Shown one piece after another: positions 14,227 to 62,718 of a stretch of 64,000 nucleotides of DNA. Positions within the stretch are counted from its first letter, which is position 1, and each line of letters begins with the position of its first letter. The translations under genes were made by a program, and so were the position numbers. Source of the DNA: Arctopsyche grandis (taxonomy: Eukaryota > Arthropoda > Insecta > Trichoptera > Hydropsychidae); the NCBI RefSeq assembly GCF_051622035.1, contig NC_135362.1, forward strand, positions 16,033,501 to 16,097,500, given 5' to 3'. The notes under the pieces were generated by a model. It was not told where the DNA came from, made no database searches, and saw only the letters and a list, made by a program, of their open reading frames with translations.

Positions 14227-17200
14227 TTAAGCAAAGTACATGACTTTCTTTGTGTCGGCATGAACTGTGATAGCTCTAGCCATTGCGCCAGGAGTGCGAT
14301 CTTCGGAACAGCCAGATTGATGACTGCCTTCACCAGAATCGTGCTCTTTTTCCACAAGGTGATAGCGAGCTCTAAACGCAACAAGATGAGCGTAGTATGC
14401 TGGCGCTGGAATGCTCACCGATCTTGTGCAGCGCACATACGTGTGACATAGCTGATAAGTCAAGCACTGCAGCTCGTCTGAATCGAAATGATTATCATCC
14501 CACAAGACATGGTAATGAGATGGTCGACTTGTACCCTGAAAAATAAAATAAACATGTAATATCACATAACCAAATCGACGTAAACAAACAGGTGATGAAT
14601 GATCCAACTAATACAATAATGATCCAACTAATACTATAAAAAAACATTCACATGTAATATACTATGTAATGATGACCATCATACTATTTAATGACGACCA
14701 TAAAGTTTCTTTTTACCTCGTGATTTTCAAATGCACACATAATAAAAAATTATTTCGTGATAGCATGAGAAAGGTAAACTTAGTATTTTTTTACCTGAAT
14801 ACCTTGATGACTGCATAAATAAAAGTCAAACTCGGTTGGATGTGTTATGCCAACGTCTACCGTCGTGCCTGCAGGTATATTTCCAGACTTGCCAGACTGT
14901 TCTTTTTTATCGGAACAGAACAGTCGGGTGTGGTGACGTTTTTGCACCACAATGAATGTTATACCAGGTTTATAATCGGCTTCGAGTTTAATGCAAGCTT
15001 CACGGACCGCAGTCAATTCGTGTTGTAAAACATGTATAAACTGTCCTTCTGACACACCATCTCGGTACATGATGATTCGGTGCGGTTTGAAACCACCCGT
15101 ACTTTTATAGAACATTATGAGTAACTCACGGACCATACTACTCATTTCCTGAATAATCTCCTGCCTGTTAAACAATAATAGAACTTAGTAGATTTTAGTT
15201 AAAAATATTTACAAAGCCAAATAGTAATTGAATTTTAAAAAGCAATTAAAAAAATGTTTATTTAACCGCCCGCCCGCCGGTTCAAACGAATGTTGTTTTT
15301 CGGCAACCGGTCCTCCTCTGTCGGCTCTAACAAATGTTGTTCCGGCGTGCACGCCGCTCCATACATTGCTCCATAACAAAAAAAAAAATAGTATGCAAAT
15401 ATTTTTCCGGTTGGCGAAAATTATATTGGCGGGTGGAGGGTTAAAAGGATTATTAAGGAATCAAAGTTATATTTAAATATTATCAACTCATCATGGTAGT
15501 TAAATTAAGTGTGTGAGGTAAAGAAACACATAATGAAAAATGAAGTACCTATGCTGCTGTACTCGTACAGTGGCTGCATATCTAGACGGATGAGCGTCCA
15601 TTGACCCGACAACGGCTGCTATAGATGGCTTCTTATTGTCTCCAGCGGGAGGATGTGTCACGTCGGCTCCCAAAAATATGACAGGCTCGTTGAACACTTT
15701 GGGTCTAAGAGACGGCACCAAAATTGAGTTTATGCCACCCAATTTAACATTAATTTTCAAACAGAGATTGCTTAATGTCTGTGGTGATGTTTTATTGACA
15801 TTTTTTGCTTGGACGCATTGAGTAGCCATTCCGAGAACAGTATCTCCAACTCTTTTTACTTCAGCTGTAAAGAAGAAAAGAAAATAAATAAATGCGCATG
15901 ATATCTAACAGCAAAAATTGAGAATACTTGAGATGCAATTAATAGATTAATTTTTGTAAAACTTGTGCATTTAATGAAATAATCAGTAACAACCAATTCA
16001 CTCAAATAAAAAAGAAAACTGTAACATATTTAAATATTATTGGAAAATTAAAAGAAGAAAATAAATACCATAAACTGGAGTTTTTCCTGGAAGAACAACG
16101 ACAACTAACTGCAATGAAACAAATGTAGATTTCAAATATTTGAACATAGGTTCAACTTGATCAGGTCCAGTGGCGTATTTGCAAAAGCAAGGTTGTCCTA
16201 TTATCGGCATGCCAGCATCGTTCGAGATCTTTTGCAGCTGCTGCGTAAAATTTCTGTAACAATTTTAAAATTACGTTGATAGAGAAAAAAAACGCTCAAT
16301 CGTGTTGTGTTAAAAATGAACCATACTTTAAAGCATCCTCCCGAACAGTACGTTGCGGTGCAAAACATGCGATGGCCCAGACGCGAATTTCAACTCCAGT
16401 GAAGAACTGTTTTCCACGCATATCCCACACTCCCTGATTGGGCAGCGCCTGCTGTTTACTCTGTGAACAAGCCACCATCTTACTCCGACATCGCTACTGT
16501 TCGCTAACCAAACTTTTAACTGCTTCAGAAATATTCCATTAATTATGTATATAATGGAATGATATTTATTTGATGCAATCAATATATAAGAATTAAATAA
16601 AAAAAAATAATAGGAAAGAATTGATCAACAATGGATCTCATAAAAAGTGACTTTGACAAAAAAATTCCAATTGATATGTTTGCAAACAAAGAAATATCAT
16701 TCGTATTATGTAAATTATTTTACTTGTCCTCCCAGTGAAGAAATTCGTCCACCATATTGTAGTTTAGGAGGTGGCAATACTCGACCACGTACTTCCATCA
16801 TATGATTGCTAATTGTCAAACCAAATTCTTGCACGTACGAATCATTATTGAAATCGGCTCGTCGAACTAAATTATTGATCTCTCGTTCTCTGTAAAATTA
16901 AGAACGTCATATATGAATATATTAACTTGCATGGTAAATCCACGTGATCCAAGCAATAAATATGCACCTATCTGGAGCGCTACGAGCTGTTGCTTTAATC
17001 ATCGTCGACGTTTGCATATCTGTCAATTTTTTTATACATCTCTGTCCTGGAACGATATTTGATACTTCTAAGGGTAAATATGTGTGTTTGTGCTCTTGAC
17101 CAACTTGAAGACAAGGAAGATGAGGATAGCGTAATTTCATTTTATACTTGTCTAAGAAATACTTGGCTACAGTACATTCCACTGTTTGTCCATTTTCTAA

Positions 17201-19918
17201 TTGTAAAGGGAATCTAGAAAACCACACCCGTAAAAGTTAGTATAGAAACGAACCATTTAAAATATTGAATTGAATTTAAAATCTATCTTACGATTGCATT
17301 TGTGCAGGTCGTCGTGTAACGTTGCATACTCTATATTTTCTTTTCATTGTACCACAATGCGTTATTTCTATTTTCAAACCTTTGATTTCTTTGGTGAATT
17401 TGACTCTTTGTGAATCAGTCAGTGGTTTTCTCTGCTCGTTGATATCTCTGATATCGAGAACTTCACACATAAAATCTATCACTGGTTGAGCCTTGTAAAA
17501 TGCAGTTGCCGAAACTAAAAAACATCACAATTTTAAACACTTTGGACGAACATTTAAGAAAATCGTGTATGTTTAAATAATAAAGTAAAATTTACCATCG
17601 ATGTTAAGCATCATTTTCCATTGGCTTGGTCGAACAGATTGATGGAAACCAAACCAAACTTCTCGCCCCCCACCGAGAGGATGATAGTAACCATCTGGAG
17701 ATGAGAAAAAGCTCCTGCCAACAGGAGTATACGTCATAGATGGTAAATGCCGCATAACAACATCCAAGGCAAGGATGGCATCATAAGGTATTTGTCGAGT
17801 GCGCCCCTCAAGCGCTTCTTCCAAAGCATATAGCGAAACCTTTACAATATAAAAAGCAATTTAATAATTCATATATTGTAATAGAATAAAAAATAAATCC
17901 TATATGGGAAATATTTATTACCTGTGCGACCCATTTAATAGTTACGCGAAAAACACGATCTTTACCTTCACCAGGTAAGGTTACTTCTAATTCGAGTCTA
18001 TCGTTACCAATCGGTAATGGGTCTCGTGTATAAAGATTATTTCGGCCATCAAATACTGGTTTTAAAGTTCCGAAAATTTTGCTATATGCATGTACCATTG
18101 TCTCAATAATTTCCCTATTTACCTAAACAAATAAAAAAGACGTTAAAGATTACCGTTACAAAACGAAAAAATAAAAAAGAAACATCAAAAAATTCGATAC
18201 ATTACCTTTCGAGGGCATTTATCTGGTTGTATATTGATATCATAGTGATGGACGAATCCTCTAGGCATTGATATTTGGAAATGATTTGCTCTTAGACCAA
18301 TAGGTCGACCTTCGCGACCTAAATTGGGTCGACGAGGGCATGAGAATACTGGTAAATCAGCGGTTGGTTGGGGGTTGGCTGGTACCAACCCCAATGTTCC
18401 ACTCCCTCCTCCGACACTCCCACTCCCTCCCGAAACTCCCGTAACACCACTTGCATTGGAACCGACACTTCCACTGGCTGGGGGTGCTGGTTATAGAACG
18501 AAAATACACAATTAAAATGATTACAACACAATCAATGAAAATTGATGATAAACCATGCACAAACAAGAATCTATCTGATATACATAAAATGAAGATATTC
18601 TACTATGTATGTATAAAAACGCATACATCCGAATATAGTTTTATGTATTAAAAACAAATATTCCTTGCAAAAAACATGGTAAACTCAGGAATGGTAATTT
18701 ATTTATGTAAATGAATACAAAATAAGAATAATTAATTATTAAATAAACCTGCTGTTCCATACATTGCATTAAAATAATTATGAATTTGACTACATTGCTG
18801 AAATATTACAAATGCATTGTTTTAATTTTATAATAAATGCCTGAAACGGTAGCATTAATCAATATTAATCAAAGTGCCCATAACAGAAAATATTTTCATT
18901 AAAACAAAAAGAAAAGAACCAAAGTTGTATAATATAAATATTAAGTTAAGTGATAATTGTGTAAATAAGTATCTAAATCTCCCATAATAGAGACAACTGT
19001 ATGAAATATGAATAAAATAGTTGATAGAACAAATGATGATTTTTTTTAATGGAAATGGTCATTTCCAAAAGAGTAGACAAATTTAACAAAAGCATGTGTG
19101 CATATGAAAGTAATTAAAAAATTAAATCACAGAAGACAAAGGTAAACACGAATTCTAAATGCGTCAAAGTAGCATTTTAACTGGAAAAAAAATTGTATTG
19201 TATAAATAATAATGATATTAAACTTTTGCTTGCAGTTCTAAAAATAGCGTTAGTCGAACATTTGTTATTATTAAAATTAGTGAGCTCCTGACACGTCCAA
19301 TAAAACGATTCTGATTAGATTTCAACGCATAATCGATTGGCTATGTTAAAAAATAGCACAATTTTTATGCCATTTGTACGATGTTATATGTAGTTTAATT
19401 TTAAATTAGATCTCAATTGGAAAATAAATATTTATAATGTATAATATGTATCAGAAAAATCACAAATCTTTCATACATCATTACAAAATATCTCTGCATA
19501 TATTAAAATAAAAATAAAAAATTAATATAATATGCATAATTATATTCAGAAAATTTCATTTATGCGTGTCCATCTCCTGTTAGTATAAGTAATAGCCAAT
19601 TGTTAAGACAAGCTTGAAGGTTTAAATAATTGTAATCATTTCCATCATAGAATCACAAATAATTAGTTAGTAGTGGTTTTGACTAAACGTTTATTCAGTC
19701 ACATAACAATGACAATATTGCCTTTGTATCAAGAACCCACTAAAAATTGTATTAATACAAAATATATTTGCAATTACTTCTGATTAAAAAATTAAGAAAT
19801 GAACAAAAAAATTTTGATGTACGTCATGATGAACTATAATACTAGTGATTCCACATGGTGTGCATAGAATGTAGAATAAATTTTGATTTCGTATATATAC
19901 ATATATGTATATATATAA

Positions 19919-19993
<75 letters not shown>

Positions 19994-22900
19994 ATATACA
20001 TACATGTATGTATTATTAATGTAGCATTTATAAACAGGCACCTGCACAAGCACACACACACATACGAAAACAATGATTTTGAAAATTCTGTTCAAAATTG
20101 AAACTACACATCAAACTGTAAATTTGAAATATGGTCTTAAATGAGATTACGTGAAAGTTGTTCGAAGCTGGTCTGGGGCTGTGAGGGACTCGGGGGCCGT
20201 GGCGGCGATGGGGTCCATGATTCTAAAAATGATAACACACATGACAGGGTGAAAGTATAGTGATCAATTCACCACCACCATGTATAAAAAAAAGCAAAAA
20301 ACAAAAAAACTATTTTCGTGCCAAAATCTACACTCAAATATATTCAAACACATGCCAATCCGTACACAAACAAAAAAAAATTAACGAAAAAAATCAATCT
20401 CGAAAACGCTTCAACTAATTTAAACATAACATTTTTATTGGAAACTATTATATGTAATTATAAGTGTAGCATCTCATACAAATTCAATTTGAAAATAAAA
20501 CATTCAATACACAAAATTATAAGTACTTCTAATTTTAATGTAATATTTAATGGGTTTAGTATAGTCTAATTAATAATACATTTTGTTTGCTTATATGACC
20601 TATTTCATTATATACAAATTATAACTGCCAATTTCTAAAATCATAAGAATTTGAAAAAAAAAAAAAATACGATGAACATATCTTGTTAAAGTTTTACAAT
20701 ATTTTCAATTTCTTATGACAATTCTGTCACATGAGGTACATACATGTGTGCAAAATTCATGCACATGCTATTTTTTGTACCCGTCTGAATATACCAGTTT
20801 GTTTTTGTGTATATAATTTATTGTATCATTTAAAAACCATCTAGAGTAGTACTAATACATAAAATCAAAAAAAATCAAGCTTATAATTTTGAATTAGAGA
20901 TATTTGATAATCAACTTAAACTTTATCTCTACACTTACATAAATACATACTAAACAAATAAGTCTTCACATATGAAACATAATTTAAATTTTCACTGGAA
21001 CTATGCATAAATTTTTTTGTAGTTGAAATTACTGCAGACTCACTTATTTTACTACGGACTAATACAAACAAAAATTCTTCATTACAAAATTGACTAGTCG
21101 ATTAAATATTATAAAAAATAACACAGAACAGTGACGGCCTATTGTCGGTGCTGCGACATGTCGATAGAACAAAATCGCATTGACAAAAATGATGTTTTTT
21201 AAAAGAAAGTAATAATATATGAGAGTCAAAAATTAATTACACTTTTTGTTGTACAATTTATTTACACAAAGGTAAAGGTTCAAGATGTACATAAATTATC
21301 TACATAGTCTACTCCGTTTTACATACACTTAGTTTAGTCTTCCAAGGAGAATGTTTTCGGCTTACTACACATTTAAGTCTGTGGAGAATCGACGAAGAGT
21401 GAGGCATTTTGCAGCAGATTCCAGGTGTTTCCACCACATACTCTATCGCTTCGATTCTGATTCATAATGATGTACCCACATTTCATCACAAGTGACTGTT
21501 CTGCTTAAAAATGTGTCGATTTTCAACAGATTTAGACGTGCAGGAAGCGGTGCAAAAGCGGCTTATATGCGAGCTTGTATACTGCTGGACCAAGTGTATT
21601 ATAAAGGGAGGAGACTATAGAAAAATGATGTACATTTTGAAGCCCTACCATTGTGTAAATCAGGCTTCGGCAACCTATGACTCCCAGGTCACCAAGTGAC
21701 ACAATTAACAATTTCATATGACCCATTTGAGTTAGGGCGCGATCACACAGCGAGGGAGCGGTATGCTGTACGCGGGATATTTTTTTTAGATAGTTTTAAA
21801 CACACACAAAATGTAGGGTCATACCCGGTATGATACGCCGGATCTTACGGGATCGTGCGGGATCGGAGCGGTCTCGTTGAAATTCTATAGAATTGTTTAT
21901 ACTAACTTGACGGTGATATATACTAATTCGTCGACCCTCGGACGACGCTTGACAGTGATCGATAACGGTGTATCCCATATTTTTTTTGACATCTCCTCCC
22001 AAGCTTCATTGCGAATGTTTTGGTCCTTATATTTAACAGATCTGACGTCATAGACACATTCGTACTGTCGCACAACTTCTATTAATTTTTCTGACATTAT
22101 GAATTGCGATGTACCGATATTATGAACTGCGGTGACCGAGCTCAAAAGACGAACTGTTTGTGATGTTAAACACAAAACTGCAATTGCAGTCACCACTTTC
22201 TTGAGTATAAAAAGTATAAATAAAAAATACTTTGTTCTTGATATAAAATAAAGTAAAAATGGGCTCTCTTTAAACGAACATGTTATTGTATCGACATGTA
22301 CATACATTCATATGGAAATGCATTCAGTATCAATTAGTTACAGTCCATATTGAGTGCACTATAGCCCTTTACGTAAAAAACATCTTTGTTCGTTTATTTG
22401 TTGATGGTATTAGGGATTTAAGTACGTATTTAGTTTTTGTACCAAAAAACTTGAGTCCATTGTCTAGTCATTTCTGTCTATTTAGTAACAATTGGTTCCG
22501 GTTAACAATTAGTGTACTACATAAAACCCTTTATGCTGAATACATCTTTGTCCGTGATCGCAGAGTTTGTTTATGAAAGTATCGAATGAGTATTTAATTC
22601 TTAAACCTACCCGGAAATATTAGTCAATTGTTGTTATAAACCGGACACTTGTTTGTCTATTTTTGTTAATTGTTTACTAATTAAGTTTAAAACTGAATTA
22701 TTAAACAATAAAAGCTTGAAATCCTTAATGTAATTTGTATTTTCTATAATCTTATTATTCCGACAAGTTCTGCTATATTTTTTTGCAAATATGGGATACA
22801 CCGTTATCGATCACTGTCAAGCGTCGTCCGAGGGTCGACGAATTGCTATATATCACCGTCAAGTTAGTATAAACAATTCTATAGAATTTCAACGAGACCG

Positions 22901-25900
22901 CTCTGATCCCGCACGATCCCGTAAGATCCGGCGTATCATACCGGGTATGACCCTACATTTTGTGTGTGTTTAAAACTATCTAAAAAAAATATCCCGCGTA
23001 CAGCATACCGCTCCCTCGCTGTGTGATCGCGCCCTTAACCAGTTGGGGCTAGAGTTTTGTTTACATATATTAAGTATAAAAAAAATTATCTTATTCAAAA
23101 ATATGCACCGGGTCAAAAATAAAAGCATCTACGCAACAACTTGAGTTTGTAATGAAAAAGGTTATTAAGATCCTTATCAAAATAGCAGCAATGATTTGCA
23201 TTAACACACAGTTGATTCAAAGCTTTTTTGGAAGACATCGAGTCAAAATATGGAGATTTGCTGTTACATACTGAAATACAATGGTTAAGTTGAGGCAGTT
23301 CTTTATAGATTTATAGAGAGCATTGATGACATACAAATATTTACTAACAAAATCGATAAAAATCATCTCGAACTCAATGATAAACAATAGTTTTTTAAGA
23401 CTTGATCTTAATGAAATGATGAACCATTATAATGATTTCAACGAACGACTCCAGGAATATAGGAATAGCTACAAAGTTTTGAAAATTGTGAATACGAGAA
23501 ATGGGAAGAGTTTTTGTTTCTATAATATATATTTTATTTTTCACTAAAACGAAAACACTCACTGGCCCGAAACATCTTAATATTTTAATTTTGACCCAAA
23601 ACTAAAAAAAAGGTTATCGACGCCTGTAGTAAATAAATTGTAGAACAAAATGCAGATAATTTTTGACTCTCTCTCTCATACCAACGTTCTGTCTCATCCA
23701 AAATTTACTTAAAAAGCGATGAAGACGACGATCTGCTGTAGCTTTCGAAGCCAAGTCCGAACAGAGTGAGAGTATTGTAAGTAAGTACCCACACTTCCGA
23801 TTGAATTCGAGTTAATTTTGCAATATTAAATGTCTTACCATTGTTACATACATTTTGCTATTTCGCTCGACAAATATGAAGTGTGAATTATTTTCGACTA
23901 CAACAGCACCGTCGAGAATTGAAACGACGAGCCGTCACTGATAAAAAGCTTCAGTACAAACAATACACAAACAAACAAATAAAAAAAAGCTAAAAATAAT
24001 AATAATACTAAAACAAAACAGAGCAAATAAAAAATATTTTCATGCATAAAAAACACATTCTAAAAACATATGCAAAAAACACAATGTAAAAAAAAAACAA
24101 AACTAATAAAATTCGTCCATATAAAAGAAAAGATATTTAAACGTACGAAAACAAAAGACGCTAGAAATATTGTACTGAAACGGAGCATTGCACCCAACAT
24201 ACAAATCGGAAAATTTTCTAATGAAACTTTTGAGTAATTGGCACATCAATTACGGTGAGGAACATCCGAACGATACTAAAAGATACCCAACGGAACCGTA
24301 GATACTGTTGTACGCTACGATCTGGCACACCGGCGGGAGAAGAACATGAGAAAAAATCCGGTACAACAGTTTATAATAGTATACTTATAAATTTACAATA
24401 ACACACATTGCGACGAATTTACCCATGGGGAGAAGCATTTACATCGAATTATCATTTGACAGTATAATTCAACAAGGATGGGTAGAGGGGAAGGTGGAGG
24501 AGAGGAGGGGTGAGGGGGGGGGGTGTGTGTATAATTCGTCGCGAATTAAAAATGGTGAGAAATAGAATTGGCTTGTTCGTATATTTAGTATGTCTAGTAG
24601 TGACATATTTAATAGGGTCACAATGCGGCGTGGAGGGGGTGGGGTGGGAGGGGTGGTGGGGGGGTGAGACAAAGGCGAGGGGCGGGAGGGAGGCGGGGGG
24701 TATCGATCGAGTCAGTGGCGGTCGGACGCGGGGCGAGGCGAGGCGGGCGGGGCGGCCCGGAGTGTAGGCTTACGTTGAGGATACATGATGGCGGGTAGCG
24801 AAGACGAAGACGAAGACGAAGCTTAGGCGAGGTAGAAGTGACGAGCTGTCGACGACGATGACGATGACGATGACGTTGGCGGTGACGGTGACGACAGCGA
24901 TGGCGATGACGAGTCGAGGGGCGAAGGCGAAGGCGAAGGCGAGGGGCGTCAGCAGGTGTCGGGGGGGGCGCGGAGGTCGTCGGGCGCCGCGACAGCCATC
25001 ACACAACACACCCACACCGTTCTATCTAACCACAGCCACAGCCACTTGCGCGACTCGCGACCGCTCCCAACACCTCCGACTACGACCATGCTCCTACCAC
25101 ATTTATATCTAATCTAGTTTCGTCAAATGACTCAACCCGTCGTTGCCGATTCATTCAATATTTATTTCGAAATTTACAATGCCACGCTAGTGGTAGGGTC
25201 AGAGAAATTAAATATTAATAGAAGTGGCTTTAGGTGTTATATTGTTGTCGAGTGACATTCTGTCCATAGTCGGATCTAAATAATTTTAGCATCAGTCGTA
25301 TTTGACGCTCGGTGCTCGACGTATGTCCGATAAAAACTTCTCTGTTTGTCTATATTACTCGCAAGATGGGCAAACATCGGTAAAAATTGCACAATACATT
25401 CAAAAGCACACAATAAACAACATGGGATACATTTTTTTAAGTGAATTGATCCGATTGTATTCCGTGCGATGTAGCGTATTTATAGAGACGTACCGCGTAA
25501 AATTGACAACAATTATTTATTCGTAAGGCCCCTCTATTCTTATTACATCTCTCTGGGTAGGGTGTTATTTGTGGCACCTCCCGTTGACTTTGATAAATTC
25601 ACACGGAATTGACTCAACGCTAACGAGCATTACTACTAGATTTTGAATTAAAGACTGTAAAAGCCAAAAATCAGGGGCGCCATTTCAGCTTTTCCCAGGG
25701 GGGAATTTTTACTAACCTCTTCTAACTTTTTTTAATTTCATCGTTCACCTCTTGTCTAGCAAATGATTAATACTGACGTGCAAAATATACTACCCATCAA
25801 AAAAATCCTACAATCTATTCATGGTTCGATATCGCAAGCATTAAGACGGTGTCTTCCCGGCATATTTCAAATATGAAAAAAAAATCGATCTCGCTTCATT

Positions 25901-54500: not shown

Positions 54501-57500
54501 AATGGATGTCATGAAAAGTATCAACTTATCTTTTTATTTGTCTATTGATGTATAGTACTTTTGATCTCAAACATAAAATACACAACGAGTCAAAACAATC
54601 ACATTTAATTAATTATGATGGAGAATCCGCTGTTGAGCAAGTTTTTTCACTTTTTTTTTGGTCATAAAACGCGTTTTGCAGATTCCCATTTATCCAGTGA
54701 TGTAATTTATTCTTTGAATTGAGTGAAAAGCATTATTGTACATTTGAAAACGAAAAGGAAACTGAACTGCAGTTGAAAAAATGTGATAAAACAAGTTTAG
54801 ATTAATCGCTACGTGATATATGTATATACGTACGTATTCAAACATTCTCTAATACAAAAACAGATAAATTTAAATCATAGTATGTATGGAAGCTTTCAAT
54901 AATTAGCTAAAATAAAGTATGAGATCTATCGATAATTTCTTAAATTTTTTTATCATAATTCTTTCAAAATGCTATATAACTATATAAACATAGCTTAAGT
55001 TTCATCTTATACTAATCTATGTATAATAAAACAAATAAATATGGTAAAAAGTATTATCATGTCAAAAACATATTGTTTCTCTATTAGAATATCATTATAA
55101 TGTGTACACTCAAACAGAAACCATAATAAATTGTGCTGTAAGTTCTATCAACAAAGAAGAAGATAAGAAACACTTTTAACATTCAACCAAATATTTGACA
55201 AATTAAACTGAAAGCGTGTGTACGATTGAACAGTGAATTGATACACAGACGTATATCACATTTGTCTTTTTTGGTATTTTGTAATATATTTAATACAAGA
55301 TTTTCAATTACAATAGCATGATAAACGAATAAACACTATTTAATAAATATAAAGTTCAGACTTTTGACAAAAAACAAAACACATTGATAAGAAATGGCAG
55401 CATTTACTGTGTAACAAATTTATTACTGGCATTCATGGCAGAATCACTCAAAAAGAATTAACATGCCATCAATATTTTAATCAAATATGCCTATTTCCAT
55501 AACCAATGTACTAGCATGTGGATATAATATATATATATATATATATTTTTTTATTAAATTAAGAAATGAATAACACATACCTTCTGGCCATTGAACGCAC
55601 ACTGTAACAAAAAAGAGTACTTTAGTTGTGTGAAAATAATTGAGTTGAAATATCACGAAAATATAATTTTACAATGAAAATGTAGAATCATATGCAAATA
55701 TAAATTATGATTTAGTTATTGGTGTATTAAAATATATCAGTAGGACATTCTAACATATAGTATATTTATTATGTATTTGTAAAACATATAAAATACAATA
55801 TAGATTTTACACGATCATACATACACATACAAATAGGCACTGTAATAATTTCAGCAATTGAAAATAATAATAAAAAAAAGGAACAATAAACATTGCCAGA
55901 AAATAAGAACAAACAGATCACTTTCGAGAAAGAAGCGTTGATGAAAGTTTGGTGAGAGTGTTATGTTTATAACACTAAAAAGGAAACAAGAAACACATTT
56001 ATTGGAAAGAAATAAAATTTGGCTAACAATTATAATATATATATACATATATATAAACATTGCTAAGTTCAATGTATGTTACGATTATAATATAACATAC
56101 AAATTTAAAATATCTCTCACCTAATGCTGACATCGATTGATTCCTAGTCAGTAATACTGAATAAACCAAATAAATATGGATATAGTAATCGTCATAGTTT
56201 TATTGCTTTGTTTCTGAAGTTTGATTTTTAAGTCACCGGATTGACTAAAGCTGATTCTGAAGCTTAATTTTCTTAAGTTGAAAGACCATAATTATAAATA
56301 TAGAATTTATGTGGTAAAATATAACTTACCATTAGGTACTGTGGTAGGTTTCTTCGTTTGGACCCGGGCAGTAGCATTGTTCACCTAACGTAAACATTTA
56401 AGAGGAGTATCAGATACCGTAAATGATGATTTAATATATTTATTGTGTATATCAATATATTGATTTCAAAAGAATGAAAAAATAATGTAAATAATTAAAA
56501 AAAGAGGCATATACATATTTGCTTCAAAAATCAAAACTAAAAGCACAAAGTGTATCGTTTATTTATAACGGTATCTAAAAAGTATATTGATATCGAAATA
56601 CGATTAATTTTAGCAATGGAAATAAATCTACTAATGTAATAAATATATAATTATATTATAAATACGAGTTTATTTTGATTATTCACGATTTGGTGATGTG
56701 ATACAATACCTAACAAAATTGAGAGAATCTTTAGTAAAATCATGCATCATGATACTTGTTAAGATATTTATGTAAATTAACTGCTAATCTATTTTTTTAT
56801 TGTAATAAAATTTGATTTCGAAAATTGGAAAAGAAAAATCTGACTGAAAATTTGATTTTAGCTAATGGTTAAATTAAAATTGGAACAAAAAATGTAGGTG
56901 GTTACTAGTGAAAAGAAAAATTCAACTTAAAATTAGTTTCAAAGATAACAGTTATATTTCAAAAGAGAAAAATTTATCTTCCTATTTGACATTCACTCAA
57001 TTTCGTAGAGTAAGTACACTTTAATCTTTAAATTGATAGCTAATATGTATATGCTGTTAAAAAAACAAAAAATATATTATTGTCTTTTAGGCAAATAATT
57101 ATTTCATTATAAAATAATGATATCAAACGGATTTACAATTTGGAAATGATTTTTTTGTGACAGTATTTTAACCAAAAGGACAATAACATTATTTATATTA
57201 TATGTATGTATATGTAATAATAATAGATAATATTTTTGAAAATCTTAATCACGTGGAATCGAACCACTGTGATGATGCTAATATCAATGTACAATGACAA
57301 TAATTGATTAAATAAAATATAGATTTACTTTTACTATTACCCACAAAAGTATCAATAAGTTTCTGAGTGTGAAAAATTGAATTATATTTAGAATTAATTT
57401 GATTCCAACATATAACAATTATTATGAAACTGCATGAGAGCTCTCAAGTCTTACCTCACTTCCATCCAGGTGGTTAAAGTTCGTTCTACAATCTCTCTCT

Positions 57501-58415
57501 CTCACAACCTTTTTATCATCGGCACTTTAATATAGCCGTCTAGAGAGTGAAGGGATAACACAAAAATATGATATATTTTTGAAGGCTTAATATTATCAAC
57601 AAGAAAAGACTTGAATATCAGACGACTCTAAGAGGTCTGATATCCAGATCAAAAAAAAATTAAAAATACATATACTAAAACCACATTGCATTTGTGAAGA
57701 TTCTCCAGAGACAGAAAATCTTTACACATACAATGTGAAGGATCATATGAATTAGGTGGGTAAGGATGTATTCTGCAGTCTGTAGTACACCAACCTTGAG
57801 GTGTATTACAAGTAAATTATGTTATCAAAAAAATTTGCAGCCGATAAAACATTAGTAGGAATTTAAAAAAAGATGTGAAGAAAGCAATGATCATTTGGAA
57901 TAATATGTAAATATATATATATAAGTCACGGGCACGGTGTGTCTACAGAGCAGAAGGGGAAAGGTTGGGATTGGGAGGTTATTACAAGTTAAGTGCTACC
58001 ACAGATGGTAAATCATAGAGATCATGCACACCTCTATTTTCCTGCCCTCAACCACGGTGCCGTGAAGTCTCTCTCGTGCGCGCTCCGCATCACCACTATT
58101 TGCGAATGTAACAAAACCGAATCCCTGCATGCAAGACAGACAAAACATGCATTAAAAACAGCGTCGCTCAAAAAACAACGTGCAACAAAAATTAACATGT
58201 ATGCATCGCATATTGTATTGGAAAGGTTTCATGTATTTAGAAATTGCACTTTGAGCGTACGTTACATTTTATAATAAGCATTTGAGGTCTAAACACATTA
58301 AACAAATGATAAACAAGGTGCTTTTTCCGATGAACTATAATTACAGTCCTAATACTGATGGAGTCCACCATTTACAATGTATTTAAAGCATCTGGGTTTA
58401 AAACTATGTGATATG

Positions 58416-61500: not shown

Positions 61501-62718
61501 CATAAAAGAAATATGTATGTATTATTACACACAAATAAAGTAAATATTTACTTTCAATACTGTAACTTCTAGTGGAAAATGTTATTTGCAAATTGAAAAT
61601 ACACCATTCATTACTAATCACTCTGATGTACAAATATATAAAATAAAATAATAAAAAAAGATAACAGAACTGTATACAAGTTTTTTTTACTAAAGAGTGA
61701 AAGCAGCAAAACTTGACTATATCAAGTGCATATCATGAGAAACATTTGCAGAGTGAACTCAGTGATAATCTAAATAAATAACATAAGCCTTATTGTGAAA
61801 TACAATTCCACATGTAAATGTTTTAATTAAAAAAATTATAATTTATTATTAGAAATTAATTTTGTTTTTATAAATAAAAAAATATTATCAGACTCAAAAT
61901 AATATATTCTATATTATAACGTAATGCAAAATATGTAAACAAAACTAGAAAATATTGAATATGCGGTATGGTAATTCATTAAATACAACTATTTACTTGA
62001 TATTAAAGACTTGAAAAAATTAAAACAAACATATCTATCATTTAAGTTTTATAAAATATGAATTAAATAGATAAAAAAAATATATTTAACTATAGTTGCT
62101 TTTATTGAATTATCAATTAATATTCATCAGAGAACTTATTTGGAATCTTCGCAATAAGGCTTACAAATTATCTAATAAAATTTCAATATTTCAAAAATAA
62201 GTATTATAAAAATTTGAAGCCTACCTTCGAACCTCGTTCATTAAATATAATTTCAACATCTAGAATTGTTCCATATTGCTGAAAAAGAAAATCAAAAGTA
62301 TGTAAAATACTGTAATAAAATAATTACTAGGTATGTATTTATGTATATTTTATTAATATTATGTGAACTATATTATAATAGGGTACTATATTTAAATTTT
62401 GTTAACTAAATACATACAAAATTTTGGTTGGTAAAATAAATTAGCACTTACTCCAAACATTGTTCTTAAATCTGGATCTCTAAACCGAAAAGGTATATTT
62501 GAAACGTGTAGACGTTTCGGTTGACATATTGTTTTATCGCATGTGGTTTGGGTAGTGGGCACTCCGACAGATACAAGGGCACCAGCAACAGAAGTGGTTC
62601 CCGTCACAGTATTAGTTCCCTCTGGAGCACCAGCTACTGTCACTCCTGTCCCGACGCCGACGCTGGTACCCGACACAGGACCCTCCGGCTCCGTTTGCTG
62701 CAACCCACCAGTCTCCAT
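48576..62718 (-). CDS. Rbfox1: Rbfox-family splicing regulator (A2bp1/Rbfox1 orthologue)
   Basis: Coding exons from 5' to 3' are 62718-62452, 62278-62225, 58124-58032, 56384-56330, 55601-55581, 53598-53406, 52161-52107, 51662-51642, 49311-49163, 49062-48999 and 48620-48576: 338 residues, all in phase. The protein binds (U)GCAUG and controls alternative splicing in neurons and muscle. A Thr/Gly/Val-rich N-terminus precedes one RRM (about residues 68-146): RNP2 is LHVSNI (70-75), RNP1 is KGFGFVTF (107-114), followed by [18 protein letters not shown]. The C-terminal half is Ala-rich, with [21 protein letters not shown] and the diagnostic end [11 protein letters not shown]. Two exons are 21-nt microexons. 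An in-frame stop 12 nt before the ATG, if unspliced, supports the start; other N-termini may come from outside the window. Confidence 0.93.
51642..51662 (-). CDS. Rbfox1: Rbfox 21-nt microexon (AAKPVVE)
   Basis: A good acceptor (TTCTTGTTCCAG) and donor (GAG|GTAACG) enclose 21 nt in phase 0 at both ends. Using or skipping it adds or removes seven residues in the Ala-rich C-terminal region. No coding sequence flanks it for hundreds of bases. Support is splice signals and phase only. Confidence 0.55.
55581..55601 (-). CDS. Rbfox1: Rbfox 21-nt microexon (VCVQWPE)
   Basis: Bounded by TTTTGTTACAG and GTATGTG. The phase joins VPN to VCVQWPE and on to AAALRGVAV, a junction string I recognise from insect Rbfox proteins, so it is a genuine microexon of this gene. 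Confidence 0.75.
58023..58028 (-). promoter_or_regulatory. UGCAUG at +4 to +9 of the RRM-exon donor
   Basis: The 5' splice site of the 93-nt RRM exon reads GAG|GTGTGCATG, so a full Rbfox binding hexamer begins at intron position +4. Binding would overlap the U1 and U6 site. Confidence 0.7.
58128..58133 (-). promoter_or_regulatory. UGCAUG at -9 to -4 of the RRM-exon acceptor
   Basis: The 3' splice site reads TTGCATGCAG|GG. The hexamer replaces the polypyrimidine tract immediately before the AG. Another copy lies at 58146-58151. Rbfox bound here should block U2AF. Confidence 0.7.
58418..58550. repeat. (TA)n microsatellite
   Basis: Two long TA runs split by an AAATATTACA interruption, in the Rbfox intron. 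Confidence 0.95.
58560..62224 (-). other. Rbfox intron
   Basis: AT-rich intron between RRM exons 2 and 3. Apart from the hAT MITE at 59.4 kb I see no gene in it. The short frames are chance. Confidence 0.6.
59404..59594. mobile_element. hAT-type MITE in Rbfox intron
   Basis: 191 bp with ends CAGGGCCTATCTT and AAGATAGGCTCTG and a perfect octamer duplication ATCACACA (59396-59403, 59595-59602). No gene. Confidence 0.85.

Follow-up and report, generated by a model that had tools for sequence, protein, structure and literature searches.

A probable autoregulated RRM exon with UGCAUG words at both splice sites in the Rbfox gene of Arctopsyche grandis

The Rbfox gene of Arctopsyche grandis has a 93-nt RRM exon with (U)GCAUG at or near both of its splice sites. 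It was found on the minus strand of the window, by which the whole analysed stretch of 64,000 nt is meant. The exon is most probably (at roughly 85%) a conserved, autoregulated cassette exon that is skipped by negative feedback; we infer the binding, the skipping, and the dominant-negative effect for A. grandis. In the proposed mechanism, abundant Rbfox would bind the UGCAUG words of its own pre-mRNA, two of them by the acceptor and one at the donor, over the U1 site. The bound protein would hinder U2AF/U2 and U1, and the RRM exon would be skipped. The protein made from the skipped transcript would be in frame and without RNP1, would be expected to bind RNA poorly, and could still compete for partners, thus serving as a dominant-negative brake.

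The Rbfox gene and its RRM exon

The RRM joined across exons has the human RBFOX1 structure 4zka as its first match, with E 1.3e-31, and RBM9 and ASD-1 come next. All six best PDB matches are RRMs of RBFOX1 (ataxin-2-binding protein 1), RBM9, and C. elegans ASD-1. The joined RRM is also matched by Pfam RRM_1, with E 5.7e-18. Judged by these PDB and Pfam matches of its RRM, the gene on the minus strand is a homolog of Rbfox, the identity given to it in the preliminary description.

Four exons, all on the minus strand, are of concern here. The exon with the RRM start is at 62452..62718 (coordinates counted from the METGGLQ codon), and the upstream RRM exon of 54 nt is at 62225..62278. The RRM exon proper (GFGFVTF...EGRKIE) is 93 nt long, has phase 0 at both ends, and occupies 58032..58124; it encodes RNP1 and about half of the RRM. 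The downstream exon is at 56331..56384, with either 56331 or 56330 as its last base. The preliminary description had given the same length, phase and content for the RRM exon, and the same edges for its neighbors (62225 and 56384), and all of these were confirmed. The 93-nt exon has a single match in the assembly (475.7 Mb, 189 contigs). Its 31 amino acids align with human RBFOX1 without gaps, 27 of the 31 residues being identical in a hand count on the PDB alignment, and because of this identity UGCAUG specificity is expected for the encoded protein.

When 62225 is joined to 56384, leaving out the 93-nt exon, the frame is kept. With this exon skipped, 31 aa, RNP1 included, would be lost in frame. 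Along the RRM_1 profile of 70 positions, the skipped product covers only positions 2-37, while the full product covers 2-69; the skipped product is still above the family cut-off, with 24.3 bits versus 20.7.

The splice sites of the exon are ordinary in strength. The donor agrees with the consensus at 6 of 9 positions, the lowest score seen, yet one that is common to 9 of the 13 donors compared. The acceptor has 9 pyrimidines among the 14 positions at -17..-4, which is the median of 13 acceptors. An argument from weak splice sites was dropped, as neither the donor nor the acceptor is unusually weak for the window, a point that counts against the feedback reading.

Elsewhere in the window, an inverted repeat with arms of 261 nt was recorded at 21722-21982 and 22787-23047. 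Its arms are 97% complementary, have 804 nt between them, and both carry almost identical open frames, for which no Pfam match was obtained at E up to 0.1.

Placement of the UGCAUG words

Three copies of UGCAUG accompany the RRM exon on the minus strand, at the positions named in the preliminary description. The first, at 58146..58151, corresponds to -27..-22 of the acceptor and falls in the expected branch-point region. The second, at 58128..58133, corresponds to -9..-4 of the acceptor and stands immediately 5' of its CAG. The third, at 58023..58028, corresponds to +4..+9 of the donor and overlaps the expected U1 pairing site. Two copies of GCACG, a weaker Rbfox motif, are present on the same strand, one upstream of the RRM exon (58183-58179) and the other within it (58079-58075).

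The placement of the hexamers at this exon is not due to chance. Chance matches at a constitutive exon would agree with the ordinary look of its splice sites and with the frequency of TGCATG over the 64,000-nt window, which is not in excess (40 matches with both strands counted, where shuffles average 35.6 and 28 of 100 have at least 40). The three copies are, however, situated at the splice sites of the Rbfox gene itself. A Poisson estimate gives 7.6e-8 for a cluster of this kind, in which two or more copies start at -30..-6 and one starts at +1..+8; it was computed for windows picked post hoc and with a rate of one TGCATG per 3200 nt per strand.

The other junctions checked in the window also speak against chance. 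GCATG was looked for within 40 nt before 13 acceptors and within 30 nt after 13 donors, all of them from an Ago1-like gene, the Rbfox gene, and a TPD52-like gene; one further donor string was not located and was left out of the set. Only the acceptor and the donor of the RRM exon have GCATG, and the other 24 junctions have none. The two other genes are presumably Ago1-like and TPD52-like, as they are called here; the Argonaute (Ago1-like) exons are found at about 14300-18500 on the minus strand, the same strand as Rbfox.

A scan of the assembly with the bracket pattern TGCATGYAG-N{80,110}-GTNTGCATG gave 42 matches, compared to 4 for the reversed-pattern control. Forty of them are repeat-like, with 38 on contig C41 and one each on C163 and C185; of the remaining two, one is the RRM exon of Rbfox and the other is on C3, where no exon is evident. 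The 38 matches on C41, outside the window, all belong to a TATG-type repeat block whose copies are scattered over more than 1 Mb. When the gap was widened to 111-140 nt, the bracket had 6 matches in the assembly and the control 1. The layout with all three hexamers and a gap of 80-110 nt has one match in the whole assembly, which is the Rbfox RRM exon, and its control has 0. These counts may be low because the scan passes over simple repeats and words of very high frequency. With the junctions and the single three-hexamer match taken together with the position in Rbfox itself, a constitutive exon bearing fortuitous hexamers seems very unlikely.

Relatives of the exon with its flanks were sought by pattern scans of the collections genome_contigs and viral_contigs (prokaryotes and viruses), which returned 96 and 7 stretches, respectively, none of them confirmed.

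Predicted RNA structure at the exon

At the donor, a hairpin of 8 bp, AUAGAGGU-GUGCAUG-AUCUCUAU, is predicted at 58015..58037 on the minus strand. Its stem would include the donor GU and its 7-nt loop would present UGCAUG, and the donor word is unpaired at 0.98 or more in the predicted fold. RNA structure could act on the exon in its own right, either through the hairpin shutting the donor or through pairing of the acceptor CAUGCA with the donor UGCAUG, which would loop out the exon. The folding energy at this donor, -12.2 kcal/mol, is the lowest of the 13 donors, and the acceptor sequence UGCAUGCA is complementary to the donor word.

The controls count against such a role. An equally long stem was formed in 2500 of 20000 tail shuffles (12.5%) and at 209 of 3509 minus-strand GTs, and the stem is longer at 2 of the 12 other donors. 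Locally, the hairpin has a z of -1.54 and is matched in stability by 15 of 200 shuffles, and the fold of 173 nt around the exon is not better than its shuffles (z 0.42). Looping-out through acceptor-donor pairing was ruled out, with a pairing probability below 1e-8. Regulation by RNA structure is, on these values, extremely improbable. The predicted hairpin with UGCAUG in its loop is suggestive and, by the controls, not rare. For the acceptor copy at -9..-4, the 173-nt fold predicts partial pairing, which does not help the model of Rbfox binding.

In an elaborated form of the negative feedback, this lineage would have gained extra parts, namely UGCAUG on both splice sites, one more copy close to the branch-point region, and a donor hairpin that encloses the GU in its stem and displays UGCAUG in its loop. 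This is an unlikely reading. If it were true, binding of Rbfox would lock the donor shut, and the exon would respond steeply to the level of Rbfox.

Direction of regulation and known systems

Rbfox bound 3' of an exon often favors inclusion, so that skipping would not follow from the donor copy by itself. Binding could favor inclusion of the RRM exon in a positive feedback, chiefly via the downstream copy, as activation is common when Rbfox sits downstream of an exon. PMC13158602 reports that Rbfox, acting at a weak 5' splice site, promotes inclusion of a MYH9 exon, the motif there being GUGACU and not UGCAUG. The exon described here, however, has two of its three copies on the upstream side, and the third lies over the U1 site; moreover, the equivalent mammalian exon is repressed (PMC3126832). 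Positive feedback is hence considered quite unlikely.

Negative feedback with skipping of the RRM exon, the reading we prefer, has close counterparts. Damianov & Black 2010 reportedly describe Fox elements that overlap the splice sites of Fox-1 and Fox-2 in mammals and that flank the Drosophila exon. With Fox elements reportedly overlapping splice sites in mammals, occlusion of both splice sites is not unusual, and the preliminary description went too far in calling the occlusion in this insect unusually direct. The mammalian Rbfox1/2/3 RRM exon (Fox-delta-RRM) and the one in A. grandis share an in-frame RRM exon of 31 aa and, reportedly, splice sites that bear Fox elements. The species are different, skipping in A. 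grandis is a prediction, and the likeness is drawn at the level of the exon and the presence of Fox elements.

In 293T cells, Rbfox3 represses the RRM exon of Rbfox2, lowering inclusion from 92% to 39-48% (Dredge & Jensen 2011, PMC3126832). The same paper, citing Damianov & Black 2010, names equivalent alternative exons in the Drosophila homolog as well as in Rbfox1 and Rbfox3, and states that products of RRM-exon skipping can be dominant negative. The mammalian parallel drawn at first, that of an autoregulated 93-nt RRM exon with a dominant-negative product, is right. The same autoregulation is described for all three mammalian family members in PMC5816070, and dominant-negative Fox isoforms are cited in PMC6884704.

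In another insect, Drosophila, Rbfox1/A2bp1 has an equivalent exon that is alternatively spliced (PMC3126832). Negative feedback, as first proposed for A. grandis, is the best explanation of the exon and is not special to this insect, given that exon of the Drosophila homolog. Fox sites reportedly flank the Drosophila exon as well.

The exon of A. grandis is a new example of an Rbfox feedback exon, and its mechanism is already in print. It adds one more such exon with Rbfox words directly on the splice signals, in this case an exon with a single match in the genome. The arrangement fits an ancient feedback and offers a compact target for testing occlusion.

In a wider comparison, SR proteins and hnRNPs regulate themselves via unproductive splicing and decay, as outlined in PMC6884704. 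They have in common with the Rbfox exon that an RNA-binding protein controls the splicing of its own transcript, and they differ from it in outcome, which is mRNA decay in their case and a predicted in-frame protein here.
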